From the IMG/VR virus record IMGVR_UViG_3300022744_000032, positions 1 through 58,499 of that record: 58,499 bases of DNA. One strand, given 5' to 3'. Below the pieces are notes generated by a model. The model saw nothing but the letters and a program-made list of their open reading frames with translations, was not told the DNA's origin and searched no databases. Within the stretch, counting starts at the first letter, position 1, and every line of letters begins with the position of its first letter. Below, one piece after another: positions 15,266 to 34,867 of this stretch. Origin of the DNA: a virus. The position numbers and the translations under genes are program-made.

Positions 15266-17851
15266 TCAAGCACTCATGGCGGTTTTGCCGCCTTCAATTA
15301 CAAACAATTTGTCCCGCCAGGAGGCTTTCGCCTTCTGTGGGCGCTCGCGGTAGCCAACCATGTCCATGATCATCTGCCCCAACCAGGCCATGGCATCCAC
15401 CTGGTCATCGTTCGTGCCACCTGCCAGGAAGCGCAGCATCTCGTCCATCAACTCGTGGACCCACGGGGCTTTATCCGGGTGGGGGAGAAGGACACGTCCT
15501 TGTCGCATCAGTCCTTGTATGGGGCGCGCACGCGCTGCCTTGTCCTGCCTGCCCGGGGGCAACTGCAGGATGTGCATGTCGTACAGGCGTTTCTTGTCGA
15601 TGGATTTCTGCATGAACGGGCCGATGGATTTCTCGATCTGGCCAGCTTCGATACCAACGATGTCCATGATCGGCCGCCATTTCATGAAGGCGTCGCAGAT
15701 GTTTTCCATGGTTTCCATGGCATCGAACTTGCCCCGGACACGGTCGAGGATGTAGATGTCATCATGCTCGTCCACGCCTGCGGTCATGCCGACGGTGTAG
15801 TTCGACAAATCGTTCGTGGTGACGGCCAAGTCCCATGCCTGGTAGCCGATCAATTTACTGGTATCAACCACATCCGGGTCGTAGAACTTGAACATTTCAC
15901 GGGTAAAGTACATCCCGGTTTCAGGGGTCGGGTTCTGCTGGAACAGGGCCGACCATTTCCGTTCACCGAGCACTTTCCGTATCCGCGCGAGGGATTTCTC
16001 GTCATACCGGTCAGGGTGAAGTGCCTCGCCTTTCTTCCGGTTCGGCTCGTCCTGGGTGGCCAGGGCAGGAAACTCGATCAGCTGCCATTTGTCCCCGCCA
16101 TTTTTCTGCTCCGCCAGTAGACGGCCACCGAGGTCATCTTCATGCCAGCGGGTCATGATCAGGATCACGCCGCCGCCGGGGGCGAGACGCGTATAAGCGT
16201 CAGAGGTGTACCAGTCCCACGCCGCTTCGCGTTGTGTCGGGCTGTCTGCATCTTCCTGACTACGGACCGGGTCATCGATCATGAGGATGTGGGCACCACG
16301 GCCGGCGATACCGGAGCCGACACCTGCGGCAAAGTACGCGCCGCCCTGCGCGGTGAACCATTCTTCTGCGGCCTGTGAATCCGGGTCCAGACGCGTGTCG
16401 AAAATCTGGTGATAGTCACTGTCCCGAAGGAGTGCCCGATTACGACGGCTGAAGCCCATCGCCAGGCCCGTGGTGTGGGACGCAGCGATCACTTCATGTT
16501 GCGGGTACTTGCCCAGGTGCCAGGCAGGAAACCGGCGTGACGCGATCTCGGAATTGTGGGTAGGGATCAGTGTCTTCCCCGCCAGGTACAGCCCGTCTTC
16601 CGAATCAACCTGGATACACTTCCCCTGAAGCCCCTGTGGTGCATAGGTTATACCTATAATCCCGCGCATGCGCTGTTTTGCAAAACGCGTAATTTGCTTC
16701 CTCGGCAGGACAGTCGGTAAAGGGAGCGTCGGTTGAAAACCGATGTAGTAACAGGTTTTTTTACCTACGACCCCGGATGTCGATGTTGTTGGTGCCGCCG
16801 CGGATACATGCGGGGCGAAGCCCAGACCGGTCAGTACCTCCACAATGTCATCGACCAGGCGTTTGTTCGCAGCGACAATCCTTACCCGGCCCGTTTTCTT
16901 ACAAACGTGCCCGTCGGTATCGACGAGCCCTGCAATCAATGCGAGCCGCTGAATAACCGAGCCCAATTTATACTCAGTAGGGATGTGTTTATTCCCCGCT
17001 ACACCAAGCGCCTTTAACTCTACCCACATCCGGCCGCTGTTATTCGGCTTCGGCCCGGCAAAACTGGTAGTAACCACACCGGTGCCTTTGTGTATCTGCT
17101 GGCTTGATATCGGATACCCCAAGGCTTCAATGGCCCGCACGACTGCCTTATCGCCCGTGCAGTGGGTGATCGCAGGTTTCTTCGACGTACCATCACCGAG
17201 CCAGGCCCCAAGGACATACGGCGGCATAGTGAACTCTTGCGCGGGAAATTTCAGACTAGAAACTTGCTGGAGCTGGTACATACAGCGGCCGCCGGGCGTA
17301 AGATCGAGCTGCTTCCTATACTTCGTGGTGCGGGTGAAATACGCAGTTTCGGCGGTTATCCACTGCTGCGCCGAACGGTGGTATACCGTCCACTCGTGGT
17401 TTTCATGACAATGGATCACACTGCCGTCTGAAAACTCAACCCGCATGTTCGCAGGTGCTTTGGCCGATGTCGCCAGCACCTTCACCGGGTGCCCGTGGGG
17501 GTGGAATACCATGTCCCCCACTTCCAGATCCCCGTGGTTTTTCCACCCGGTTGTGGTCAACACGGGTGTGTTGTCGGCCAGAAGTTTCCCGTGGCGCGGA
17601 GGCACACAGATCATGAGCCGGGGGGATTTTTTATCGGCCACGTCCTGGGAAAACTGTTCCAGGACCTCGCAGATCTGCTTATGCACCCAGCCCGCCTGAT
17701 AATTCGGGTTAAACCGCTGCACGAACGGCAGCAAGTGGCGTCGACACAGTTCCCGTGAGGCGAGTTCGGCCATCGCCCCGCGTGCGGCCGCGTTCGGCAT
17801 CGCAGTCGGCAGGTCGAGGGAAAACTCTGTCTCTTCCGGGAACAGGTCCAC
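15266..17851 (-). CDS. terL: terminase large subunit with in-frame intein
   Basis: 861 codons from a GTG at 17851. Removing an intein of 344 residues (90-433) leaves a 517-residue TerL, a normal length. The exteins join as CVPPRHGK/SEIASRRFPAW, rebuilding the Walker A motif of the packaging ATPase. Downstream, 'HILMIDDPV' near residue 535 is the Walker B strand, 'LIMTRWHEDDLGG' near 580 the coupling motif, and 'YQAWDLAVT' near 680 starts the RNase-H-like nuclease domain with its first aspartate. It acts with the small subunit (19620-20111) and the portal. Without splicing the ATPase site would be split, so packaging depends on intein excision. Confidence 0.9.
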   Translation of the reverse strand: MDLFPEETEFSLDLPTAMPNAAARGAMAELASRELCRRHLLPFVQRFNPNYQAGWVHKQICEVLEQFSQDVADKKSPRLMICVPPRHGKLLADNTPVLTTTGWKNHGDLEVGDMVFHPHGHPVKVLATSAKAPANMRVEFSDGSVIHCHENHEWTVYHRSAQQWITAETAYFTRTTKYRKQLDLTPGGRCMYQLQQVSSLKFPAQEFTMPPYVLGAWLGDGTSKKPAITHCTGDKAVVRAIEALGYPISSQQIHKGTGVVTTSFAGPKPNNSGRMWVELKALGVAGNKHIPTEYKLGSVIQRLALIAGLVDTDGHVCKKTGRVRIVAANKRLVDDIVEVLTGLGFAPHVSAAAPTTSTSGVVGKKTCYYIGFQPTLPLPTVLPRKQITRFAKQRMRGIIGITYAPQGLQGKCIQVDSEDGLYLAGKTLIPTHNSEIASRRFPAWHLGKYPQHEVIAASHTTGLAMGFSRRNRALLRDSDYHQIFDTRLDPDSQAAEEWFTAQGGAYFAAGVGSGIAGRGAHILMIDDPVRSQEDADSPTQREAAWDWYTSDAYTRLAPGGGVILIMTRWHEDDLGGRLLAEQKNGGDKWQLIEFPALATQDEPNRKKGEALHPDRYDEKSLARIRKVLGERKWSALFQQNPTPETGMYFTREMFKFYDPDVVDTSKLIGYQAWDLAVTTNDLSNYTVGMTAGVDEHDDIYILDRVRGKFDAMETMENICDAFMKWRPIMDIVGIEAGQIEKSIGPFMQKSIDKKRLYDMHILQLPPGRQDKAARARPIQGLMRQGRVLLPHPDKAPWVHELMDEMLRFLAGGTNDDQVDAMAWLGQMIMDMVGYRERPQKAKASWRDKLFVIEGGKTAMSA
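16553..17584 (-). mobile_element. class 3 intein with LAGLIDADG homing endonuclease inside TerL
   Basis: Residues 90-433 of the TerL reading frame. The intein has no Cys or Ser at position 1 (it starts Leu-Leu-Ala-Asp). It carries the class 3 'WCT' set: Trp154 after NHE in block B, Cys412 in block F (GKCIQVDS) and Thr431 in block G. It ends His432-Asn433 followed by Ser434 as +1. Two LAGLIDADG helices, 'LGAWLGDGT' near 214 and 'LIAGLVDTDGH' near 305, indicate a homing endonuclease that appears intact. In class 3 inteins the block F Cys starts splicing. Insertion between Lys89 and Ser434 of the Walker A loop is a highly conserved target site. Confidence 0.9.
16642..16658. promoter_or_regulatory. 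operator-like palindrome inside the intein coding sequence
   Basis: CATAGGTTATACCTATA matches the recurring palindrome with one end mismatch, but lies in the intein reading frame (IGITYAPQ region). On the plus strand the right arm forms TATAAT. It may be a true antisense regulatory site or a chance match. Confidence 0.45.
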
Positions 17852-21074: not shown

Positions 21075-21106
21075 TTATGCAGGGTTGGCGGGGAATGCAA
21101 CTGGTG

Positions 21107-21312
21107 CATGTCCAGGAAGAGGGTCCATGTCCAAGAAGAGGGTCCATGTCCATGTCCATGTCCATGTCCATGTCCATGTCCATGTCCATGTCCAGGAAGA
21201 TGGCCCATGTCCAGGAAGATGGTCCATGTCCAGGAAGATGGTCCATGTCCAGGAAGATGGTCCATGTCCAGGAAGATGGTCCATGTCCAGGAAGATGGTC
21301 CATGTCCATGTC
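21107..21312. repeat. tandem repeat array (19-bp and 6-bp units) at the divergent junction
   Basis: Two 19-base units (CATGTCCAGGAAGAGGGTC type) are followed by seven CATGTC hexamers (21145-21186), six more 19-base units (21187-21300) and two hexamers. No unique spacers separate the units, so it is not a CRISPR array. The array lies between leftward late and rightward early transcription. It could be an iteron-type origin, a DNA-binding protein platform or a slippage-prone variable locus. Frames through it are low-complexity and I do not call them genes. Confidence 0.9.
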
Positions 21313-21330
21313 AAATGTAGGGTTATTTCC

Positions 21331-21356
21331 TTATGAAAAAAATTTCATAAATTTTT
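21331..21356 (+). terminator. AT-rich hairpin in the divergent region
   Basis: TTATGAAA-AAAA-TTTCATAA, followed by ATTTTTG, is a perfect 8-bp stem with a T-run. It may insulate the repeat array from the early transcript. The rest of 21357-21484 shows no gene and no clear promoter to my eye. Confidence 0.45.
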
Positions 21357-30114: not shown

Positions 30115-30371
30115 GTAAAAAACTACAAGTTTGGACATGTAAAATTGTTATCGAAGCAGATGAGCTACCAAATGGGTTCAATTACCCTCCTAGAATGGCC
30201 GCAGAAAAAGCAATAGCGTCTGCTGGATTTAATGTGCTGATGAATAGCTCTGGCTGGGGCGGTTCTCTGGATGAATTGGATGTTATGTATTTGCAGAGTA
30301 ATGGTTACAAGATAGGTAGCGACGTTTACATAGCAGGATTGGTCGATATTTCTGAAGATGTGAGGCATTGA
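30111..30371 (+). CDS. hypothetical protein
   Basis: 86 residues. Alternating strands and a helix ('PPRMAAEKAIASAGFNVL') suggest a small alpha/beta fold. It overlaps the membrane peptide gene by 4 bases. No family is recognised. Confidence 0.6.
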   Translation: MSKKLQVWTCKIVIEADELPNGFNYPPRMAAEKAIASAGFNVLMNSSGWGGSLDELDVMYLQSNGYKIGSDVYIAGLVDISEDVRH

Positions 30372-30373
30372 AT

Positions 30374-30682
30374 ATGAGCGAACAAGACGAACAGATCAGG
30401 AAGAAGTTTGAGCAAGCTTTTACAGTTCCAGAAGGTGTACGCTGGTGCAATCATCAAGAAATGTATACCGCCATTGATAAGTTTAGCGAAGACGATGGAA
30501 GAAATACCGTCCTTCAAAACGCAAAGCATAAAGCATACAAAGCAGGCCGCGAGAGTGTTGTCGTGGAGTTGCCTGCTGCAGAGAAGCAGACGTCACCGTA
30601 CACATGTTATGAAAACGGGTGGAACGATATGCGGCAAGAGACTATTGAAGCAATCAAAGCAGCAGGAGGCAGAATCAAGTAA
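30374..30682 (+). CDS. hypothetical phage protein
   Basis: 102 residues from ATG 30374, helical. The C-terminus 'CYENGWNDMRQETIEAIKAAGGRIK' is a recurring ending in phage accessory proteins that follows the 'AWLAG/GWNDCR' layout. The function is unknown. It closes the accessory operon before a strong terminator. Confidence 0.65.
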   Translation: MSEQDEQIRKKFEQAFTVPEGVRWCNHQEMYTAIDKFSEDDGRNTVLQNAKHKAYKAGRESVVVELPAAEKQTSPYTCYENGWNDMRQETIEAIKAAGGRIK

Positions 30683-30685
30683 ACA

Positions 30686-30753
30686 GAACACAGCCCCCTA
30701 CGTGCAGGGGCCCAAATCCTGCCCCTGGTCAGCCACATAGGGGGCTGTTTTCT
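30686..30753 (+). terminator. strong double-hairpin terminator
   Basis: The outer stem ACAGCCCCCTACGTG pairs with CACATAGGGGGCTGT, and an inner CAGGGGC/GCCCCTG hairpin is nested inside. TTTTCTGTTTATTTT follows. This ends the accessory transcript that begins at 25.7 kb. Confidence 0.85.
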
Positions 30754-30764
30754 GTTTATTTTCC

Positions 30765-33330: not shown

Positions 33331-33349
33331 TCCCTGAAGTAAACGAAAG

Positions 33350-33378
33350 CAGGCGCACTAACAACGCACCTGCTTTTT
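33350..33378 (+). terminator. rho-independent terminator
   Basis: GCAGGCGC and GCACCTGC arms around ACTAACAAC, then TTTTTTC. One G-T pair in the stem. Confidence 0.85.
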
Positions 33379-33413
33379 TCTCACAACCTTGTTCACAAAT
33401 AGGAAAATGAACC

Positions 33414-33695
33414 ATGATCAATGTAAAAGTAGTGAAAGTTCCAGGCAATGCTACTGACCAGACCCTGAACGATGGCGCAACCGCTGCCGACGCCTTGCGT
33501 GTTGCCGGCCTGTCCCGCGCCAGCAACGAAGAGTTGCGTATCAACGGCCAGGTCCAGGCTGACACAACTGTGTTGCGCGACGGCGATCGCGTCATGCTGG
33601 TGCAGGGCGCAAAAGGCAATGCAGCCAAAAAACCGGCGGCAAAACCGGTAAAGAAACCTGCTTCAAAGCCAGCGAAAAAACCGGCCAAGAAGTAA
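33414..33695 (+). CDS. ubiquitin-like (ThiS/MoaD-type beta-grasp) protein with Lys-rich tail
   Basis: 93 residues. Residues 1-64 have the beta-grasp order: strand (INVKVVKVPG), strand, helix (TAADALRVAG), 'NEELRINGQV' and the signature 'TVLRDGDRVMLV' seen in ThiS/MoaD/TGS-type folds. Residues 65-68 (GAKG) are followed by a 25-residue Lys/Pro/Ala tail. Ubiquitin-like modifiers act through a C-terminal Gly, so removal of the tail after Gly68 by the JAMM peptidase encoded downstream would make a conjugatable form. That processing is inferred. The ATG follows AGGAAAATGAACC. Next come a structured intergenic region and an E1-like gene. Confidence 0.75.
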   Translation: MINVKVVKVPGNATDQTLNDGATAADALRVAGLSRASNEELRINGQVQADTTVLRDGDRVMLVQGAKGNAAKKPAAKPVKKPASKPAKKPAKK

Positions 33696-33701
33696 TCTGA
33701 A

Positions 33702-34137
33702 TTATCCTTCTCCAGGATGTGTATACATCAGTACGGGTGCCAACACATACCGTAATTCATGTCTATCGAGTGCTACACATATATTTTCCTGCTCGACAGG
33801 AATCTCGTGAACATAGATTGGACAGTAAGTCGGGTCTCGCGGCGCAGGAACATGCAATAACATCCTGGAGGGGGATAACTTTTTTGTTGGCTCAAGTCAG
33901 CGCCCGACGGCCGGCTGCTATGAGGTTCCCTGCTTTGACAGGCAACCGTCAAACGTCGCGAATCTGGGTTCCAGGTATCCATCGGGCGCTGACTTGAGCC
34001 AACAGAGATAATAAAAAGAAACACTATTTGGGTACTGCTACGCATACGCGTCTTGAGCGCCTATCGACGAACATACCAAAAAACCCAGTAGGGGCACTGC
34101 GCCCCGTTGATCGGGGGAGTAATAGTGTTTCCTTTTA
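33702..34137 (+). ncRNA. candidate structured RNA with three long stems
   Basis: A gene-free gap of 473 bases holds three successive long-range helices. Stem 1: 33702-33720 with 33860-33878, 19 pairs including two G-U, then six T. Stem 2: 33886-33907 with 33982-34003, 22 perfect pairs, enclosing a TTTGAC/GTCAAA hairpin. Stem 3: 34012-34028 with 34121-34137, 16 of 17 paired, enclosing GGGGC-ACTGC-GCCCC. Smaller hairpins lie inside stem 1 (33732-33754, 33787-33801). The 93-codon frame at 33719-33997 follows the repeats and is not gene-like. It could be a noncoding RNA, a long regulatory leader of the E1/JAB/E2 genes, or a DNA-level inverted-repeat element. No known RNA family is recognised. Confidence 0.65.
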
Positions 34138-34168
34138 CTATTTCCCTCAACATTTACAGGAAAAATGT

Positions 34169-34867
34169 ATGTCAGACATTTCGTTAATCCGGCACCAGGC
34201 TATTTTTGATCCGAGCCTTCATCGTATACCCGTAACCATCATCGGTTGTGGTGCGACGGGTTCACGGATTTTTGCAGCACTTGTCGAACTGGGCGTGACC
34301 AATATCACGTGCTATGACTTCGATATTGTCGAGGCGCACAACCTGGCAAACCAGATTTTTGTTCACGCCGATATCGGAAAACCAAAAGTCGCAGGATTAG
34401 TTTCCTGGTACGCTGCGAAAACTGGAACAGCTCCGCCAAAAACAATGACATTTGTCCAGGAGAAAGTCGTTCATACCACAGAGATAGACATCGAAGGACA
34501 CATTGTATTTCTGCTCACAGATTCCATGGCATCCCGACGTGAATTATTCGAATGTTTCCTGTACCACGGACACGAAAAACCCCCATTGGCTGTGATCGAA
34601 ACACGCATGGCATCAACCCACGGCAATGTCATGTGGTATCGCCCGGAAGATGAAAAACAAACCAACGCGTGGGAAGCCACATTGTCTGACGATGAATCTA
34701 CCGAATTGAGCCCTTGCGGACAACCCATGTCCGTAGGTACGACCGCGTCCATTATCGCCAACCTCGCGGTGTGGCAATTCATCCTGCTTCATGTAAACCC
34801 GGAAGCAGCGAATAGCAAAGTCGATATTTACCTTAAACCCCTCATGGTAATCACAGGAGATTTATGA
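34169..34867 (+). CDS. E1-like (ThiF/MoeB-fold) adenylating enzyme
   Basis: 232 residues from ATG 34169 (CAGGAAAAATGT leader). 'VTIIGCGATGSRIFAALVELGV' (22-43) is the nucleotide-binding GxGxxG strand-helix. Asp50/Asp52 lie in 'YDFDIVEAHNLANQ', Lys71 and Lys73 in 'GKPK', and Asp118 in 'LLTDS'. Cys183 in 'LSPCGQP' precedes a helix, as the catalytic Cys does in ThiF-type enzymes. The usual Arg of the NLxRQ motif is Asn here. E1-like enzymes adenylate the C-terminal Gly of a ubiquitin-like protein and may pass it to an E2. The neighbouring beta-grasp, JAMM and E2-like genes support this. It overlaps the JAMM gene by 4 bases. Confidence 0.85.
   Translation: MSDISLIRHQAIFDPSLHRIPVTIIGCGATGSRIFAALVELGVTNITCYDFDIVEAHNLANQIFVHADIGKPKVAGLVSWYAAKTGTAPPKTMTFVQEKVVHTTEIDIEGHIVFLLTDSMASRRELFECFLYHGHEKPPLAVIETRMASTHGNVMWYRPEDEKQTNAWEATLSDDESTELSPCGQPMSVGTTASIIANLAVWQFILLHVNPEAANSKVDIYLKPLMVITGDL

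Follow-up and report, generated by a model that had tools for sequence, protein, structure and literature searches.

A structured stretch after a phage ubiquitin-like modifier gene, probably an RNA boundary within its conjugation cassette

Phage T7 carries RNase III processing sites between its early genes. In the Rhodobacter puf operon, intercistronic hairpins set the ratios of the encoded proteins (PMC11354728), and genes sharing an operon are uncoupled when their polycistronic mRNA is processed (PMC3997798). The locus described here lies in a single virus record of 58,499 bases (the whole stretch analyzed, hereafter “the window”), in which the genes of a ubiquitin-like conjugation cassette, all on the + strand and in the order UBL-E1-JAB-E2, are separated after UBL by a 473-nt gap (E1 start taken as position 34169) that three long stems tile almost end to end (Table 1). 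As in the puf operon, a stable structure stands between operon cistrons of presumably unequal need, at the 3' end of what would be the more abundant one; the differences are that here there are three long stems with loops of 68 to 139 nt, in a phage and beside a ubiquitin-like cassette. Like the T7 sites, these long duplexes lie between genes of a phage and might give rise to separate messages, whereas here three candidate sites would stand in tandem in one gap. The stem followed by six T also recalls intrinsic terminators, and terminator-like hairpins follow UBL in some relatives, but the loops are very long and there are three stems. The gap has a stable structure and a gene order that would suit an intercistronic stabilizing or processing element if UBL and E1 share a transcript, and most relatives keep a hairpin in the same place, L035 and L082 being exceptions; the stem duplexes (19 to 26 pairs) are of a length compatible with an RNase III site, and nothing more. 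On balance, we favor with modest confidence that the gap is a structured 3' UTR of the UBL cistron, forming an RNA boundary between UBL and E1-JAB-E2 that uncouples the two.

Table 1. Positions of the cassette genes, stems and leader elements in the window and of the leader pseudoknots in relatives
Feature	Position	Strand	Basis or remark
Hairpin 5' of UBL, then T run; candidate UBL leader hairpin	33346..33376	+	sequence
AACAA in hairpin loop, candidate pseudoknot arm, weak alone	33360..33364	+	pseudoknot search
TTGTT, candidate loop partner, 20 nt before UBL start, weak alone	33389..33393	+	pseudoknot search
UBL, 93 aa, ThiS/MoaD-like beta-grasp modifier, Lys/Ala/Pro-rich tail after ...GAKG	33414..33695	+	relatives; weak ThiS match
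Stem 1, 5' arm (19 nt)	33702..33720	+	inverted-repeat reading, folding, pair probability
Stem 1, 3' arm	33860..33878	+	139 nt enclosed
Six-T run between stems 1 and 2	33880..33885	+	sequence; one base after stem 1
Stem 2, 5' arm (26 nt, 23 perfect)	33885..33910	+	inverted repeat, folding, pair probability
Stem 2, 3' arm	33979..34004	+	68 nt enclosed; 74 within perfect 23-nt core
Stem 3, 5' arm (24 nt)	34005..34028	+	first base directly after stem 2
Stem 3, 3' arm	34121..34144	+	92 nt enclosed
E1-like ThiF-family gene, 232 aa	34169..34867	+	ThiF PF00899, E 8e-20, 71.4 bits (cut-off 28.1)
JAB/JAMM-like protease candidate, 307 aa	34864..35787	+	HSH-x10-D motif read in sequence
E2-like candidate, 716 aa	35789..37939	+	HPHVLNNGKPCFGDFGPPI Cys motif common to relatives' large proteins; gene order
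Conserved pseudoknot leader	L024:3503-3551		
Conserved pseudoknot leader	L025:3584-3634		
Conserved pseudoknot leader	L053:3934-3981		
Conserved pseudoknot leader	L056:3936-3982		
Conserved pseudoknot leader	L061:3934-3980		

Within the cassette, E1 is a clear ThiF-family protein. UBL shares 34 to 47% identity with the UBLs of relatives; its match to ThiS is weak and below the cut-off (E = 0.0077), and the L061 homologue passes that cut-off. The tail of UBL (window 33600-33695) runs past the ...GAKGN end seen in relatives and is Lys/Ala/Pro-rich (KPAAKPVKKPASKPAKKPAKK); the JAB protease may have to trim this tail before the glycine is exposed. The JAB candidate itself has no Pfam match (its L024 homologue has a weak Prok-JAB match, E = 0.061), nor did a Pfam search return one for the E2-like candidate, so both names are putative. 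Two further features were observed elsewhere in the window: a terminase large-subunit-like protein of 861 aa (15266-17851) with an apparent intein, the insert running from LLADNTPVLTTTGW... to ...HN, and short tandem repeats at about 21100-21350, with MSMSMSMS and repeated VQEDGPCPGRWSMS in the translated frame.

The original prediction of three tandem stems filling a gap between the modifier and E1 genes, free of any known gene, is upheld by the positions of the arms, the folding z-score and the inverted-repeat scans. Stem 1 begins 6 nt past the UBL stop codon; its 19 pairs, including two G-U on the + strand, and the ensuing six T are as had been described. Stem 2, proposed as a perfect 22-bp repeat enclosing 74 bases, is indeed perfect around 74 bases, but the repeat is 23 nt long (33885-33907/33982-34004) and reaches 26 nt with one mismatch when extended. 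The 16 of 17 pairs enclosing about 90 bases that were read for stem 3 were recovered (34012-34028/34121-34137), and this core can be lengthened to 24 nt, of which 21 form Watson-Crick pairs. Six bases lie between stems 1 and 2 and stem 3 abuts stem 2, giving tandem domains of 177, 120 and 140 nt; 24 nt separate the end of stem 3 from the E1 start, and the E1 ribosome-binding site lies just past the stem.

Folding of a 455-nt region gave −178.7 kcal/mol on the + strand, against −130.2 ± 5.3 for dinucleotide shuffles (z = −9.1), and −189.8 on the opposite strand (z = −10.7). In scans of the whole window, stems 1, 2 and 3 scored 17.1, 26.1 and 20.1, respectively, and are three of its four strongest inverted repeats; only one other stem, at 30677-30761, exceeded 14 (about 22). 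In four windows shuffled by mononucleotide, a cruder control than the dinucleotide shuffle, the maxima were 12.4, 13.7, 12.4 and 17.5. The stems are real, and chance is excluded for the set. The repeat at 30677-30761, the second strongest in the window, is a hairpin with 28-nt arms and a nested GC stem directly 3' of the gene at 30368-30682. On the + strand, the interiors enclosed by stems 1, 2 and 3 did not exceed shuffles in structure (z = −0.65, −0.65 and +0.52), which places the excess structure in the closing stems.

Stems 1 and 2 had pair probabilities of at least 0.95 on the + strand in all flanks tried, and the mean for stem 3 on that strand was 0.86 alone and 0.02 to 0.24 with the longest flanks, where other foldings win. 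On the − strand, all three stems stayed at 0.83 to 0.99 in every flank tried, so that thermodynamics alone slightly favors the − strand. A hand count of the arms on the + strand gave three G.U and three A.C (four and four in slightly extended arms), a balance that favors neither strand, nor RNA over DNA; the earlier argument that G-U positions point to RNA pairing therefore fails. The lack of strand preference in the arms, the more stable − strand fold and the weakness of stem 3 on the + strand with long flanks all count against a 3' UTR of UBL. The balanced G.U and A.C, the near-perfect arms around ordinary interiors and the absence of the gap sequence from relatives would instead suit an element acting as DNA, such as remnant repeats of small mobile elements, template switching, or a replication or recombination site. 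We consider this very unlikely: there are no dispersed copies of the gap element within the window and no second copy in the phage genome, the stems abut and leave no space for target-site duplications, and relatives have hairpins in the same place with a + strand G.U bias.

No homologues of the gap sequence were found by blastn in phages and plasmids, and no closer relatives of the phage were found via UBL, polymerase or JAB. An exact 16-mer of stem 2 had 13 matches in viral contigs, which we take as chance because the partner arm was absent from all of them (0/13). At the gathering score, neither the window nor any of 12 related loci matched an Rfam family; relaxing E to 10 yielded sub-threshold matches only, the best being to a microRNA-precursor model, and a 1-in-5000 microRNA-model match on the − strand was rejected as an effect of the long hairpins. 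An integron attC-like reading was also set aside, as the ends of stem 2 misfit the core consensus. A discrete noncoding RNA from either strand, released by processing or made from its own promoter and acting in trans, could account for the three tandem domains, the very low folding energies of the two strands and the stability of the − strand stems in any flank. It appears distinctly unlikely, given the shuffle-like interiors, the lack of an Rfam family or homologue, and the finding of no sigma-70-like promoter on either strand. The proposed new class of structured RNA is likewise not established, the interiors being shuffle-like and the searches having found no homologue of the gap.

Relatives were collected as E1 relatives (about 44 to 56% identity) plus UBL relatives of one of them. 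The UBLs are jointly too divergent to serve as an aligned search profile, and an E1 genome scan returned only two distant matches besides a contig of Allochromatium humboldtianum, which matches the L006 phage. In most relatives, there is a hairpin past the UBL stop codon whichever gene comes next: 14 to 16 pairs in L003, a perfect 14 to 15 bp in L004/L005, 15 bp in L025, 14 bp in L031, 11 bp and then a T run in L028 and L065, 10 bp with a weaker T run in L021/L023, 9 bp in L056/L057, 9 bp after the first of two UBL genes in L006 (with a similar GC-rich hairpin by eye after the second), and two hairpins each in L024 and L053. Hairpins after UBL were seen by eye in the more distant L029, L032, L033 and L038; in L035 and the Xanthomonas phage L082 there is no such stretch after UBL and the next gene starts close by. 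The L006 phage, on an Allochromatium contig, has its two UBL genes in tandem with a GC-rich hairpin after each (L006:1470-1986), and in L064/L065 two UBL domains are fused in one open reading frame. The strongest stem score within 180 nt past the gene had a median of 10.6 after UBL and 8.0 after other genes on the same contigs, and scores of at least 9 were found for 76% of UBL genes compared with 30% of other genes (Mann-Whitney P = 1.3 × 10−6, n = 17 versus 254, a P value that is too small since the rows are related and not independent). Stem scores of L056, L057 and the second L006 UBL were near the control median, and that of L061 was also unremarkable. Leaving the window aside, stems past UBL held 18 G.U versus 7 A.C on the + strand (rows include near-identical relatives), which favors RNA of the + strand. 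A structured RNA at the position of the gap, as originally suggested, fits the pattern of the relatives.

Gene order in relatives points to the gene with which the structure goes. Cassettes of relatives are ordered UBL-E2-E1-JAB or UBL-E1-JAB-E2, so that the gene next after UBL is E2-like in L003 and L004 and E1 in L024, L025 and L057; in L056, L058, L059 and L061, E1 is separated from the structured stretch by other open reading frames. That the structure stays beside UBL despite intervening genes is the main argument for a 3' element of UBL and against a leader of E1. The termination-controlled leader of the original prediction, or more generally an attenuator or riboswitch for E1-JAB-E2, would agree with the short distance from stem 3 to the E1 start and its ribosome-binding site, but the adjacency to UBL in relatives, together with the lack of a conserved sequence element or Rfam match, makes it extremely unlikely.

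Hairpins after genes are common, and in several relatives the structure could be a plain terminator, the main rival to a processing or stabilizing 3' UTR. UBL would then be the last gene transcribed before termination at the stems (or at stem 1 and its T run), E1 would have its own promoter, and the structure would do nothing more than terminate. The T run past stem 1 is consistent with this, as are the T-run hairpins after UBL in L028, L032 and L065, the weaker T run in L021/L023, and the hairpins at which other genes of the phage end (e.g., 30677-30761). Against it, the loops of 139, 68 and 92 nt depart from the short-loop, GC-rich form of intrinsic terminators, a scan of the gap found no + strand terminator and no sigma-70-like promoter, and the hairpins of L003, L004, L024 and L025 are without T runs. 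We therefore regard an ordinary terminator as rather unlikely; the six T that had been pointed out do come after stem 1, but its 139-nt loop is unlike that of an intrinsic terminator and the scan makes no call there.

Covariation was examined in L024 and L053, the only alignable tails that differ, which are not homologous to the window element. Across two helices (30 pairs), pairing is complete in the 58 scored cells; two changes are compensatory and another turns U-G into U-A. Sliding the partner by 1 to 3 columns lowered pairing to 41 to 65%, a contrast that is inflated because the structures were chosen from the same sequences, and a column-shuffle control (124 of 500 reached the observed value) is uninformative with two sequences. 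The pattern of indels argues against coding.

A candidate second structured element precedes UBL. The hairpin at this place in the window is a candidate leader that could equally be the terminator of the upstream gene; the terminator scan finds it terminator-like on the − strand only. The score of its AACAA/TTGTT pseudoknot was equaled by 6 of 100 shuffles, with spacing as in relatives (18 to 20 nt). H-type pseudoknots stand before UBL in L024, L025, L053, L056/L057 and L061, where (T)GCCAC, ending 18 to 20 nt before the UBL start, is the partner of the loop GTGGC(A), and where stem 1 of the pseudoknot varies in sequence among phages with pairing kept. Their scores were reached by 0 to 3 of 100 shuffles (the search takes the best of many candidates per sequence, and shuffles were handled likewise); other relatives have weaker candidates. 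Past the leader in L024, L025, L053 and L061, the ribosome-binding site lies inside a small hairpin, GAYAC-AGGAG-GTRTC, that shows a compensatory C-G/U-A change. As T4 gene 32 shows, a pseudoknot in a phage leader can act in autoregulation (PMC3014915). The likeness is an H-type pseudoknot upstream of a phage start codon; the gene is a different one here, and 18 to 20 nt lie between the end of the second stem and the start codon in the L024 clade. Tentatively, and with considerable doubt, phage UBL cassettes might carry a dedicated RNA control module in which a pseudoknot leader and a structured tail bracket the UBL message, so that it is regulated apart from the enzymes by, for example, free UBL or a nuclease; the window tail would then be the most elaborate in the set.

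If the gap is a structured 3' UTR of UBL, it would be transcribed with the cassette operon, the + strand being the relevant one, and would fold into long double-stranded stems that may block 3' exonucleases, be cut by RNase III, or both; transcription might also terminate in part at the T run past stem 1. The outcome would be a separate UBL message, more stable or more abundant, with E1, JAB and E2, presumably needed in smaller amounts than the modifier, made from a scarcer distal message and protein ratios set accordingly. The element is elaborate for its kind: a real, well-placed structure that is probably an RNA boundary after UBL. To our knowledge, phage ubiquitin-like conjugation cassettes have been little studied. 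Were the gap structure only a terminator, it would be ordinary. Should the ratio of modifier to enzymes be set by the hairpin after UBL, that hairpin would offer a simple handle on how much modifier these phages need and at what time, with the pseudoknot leader in the L024 clade as a second testable control point.
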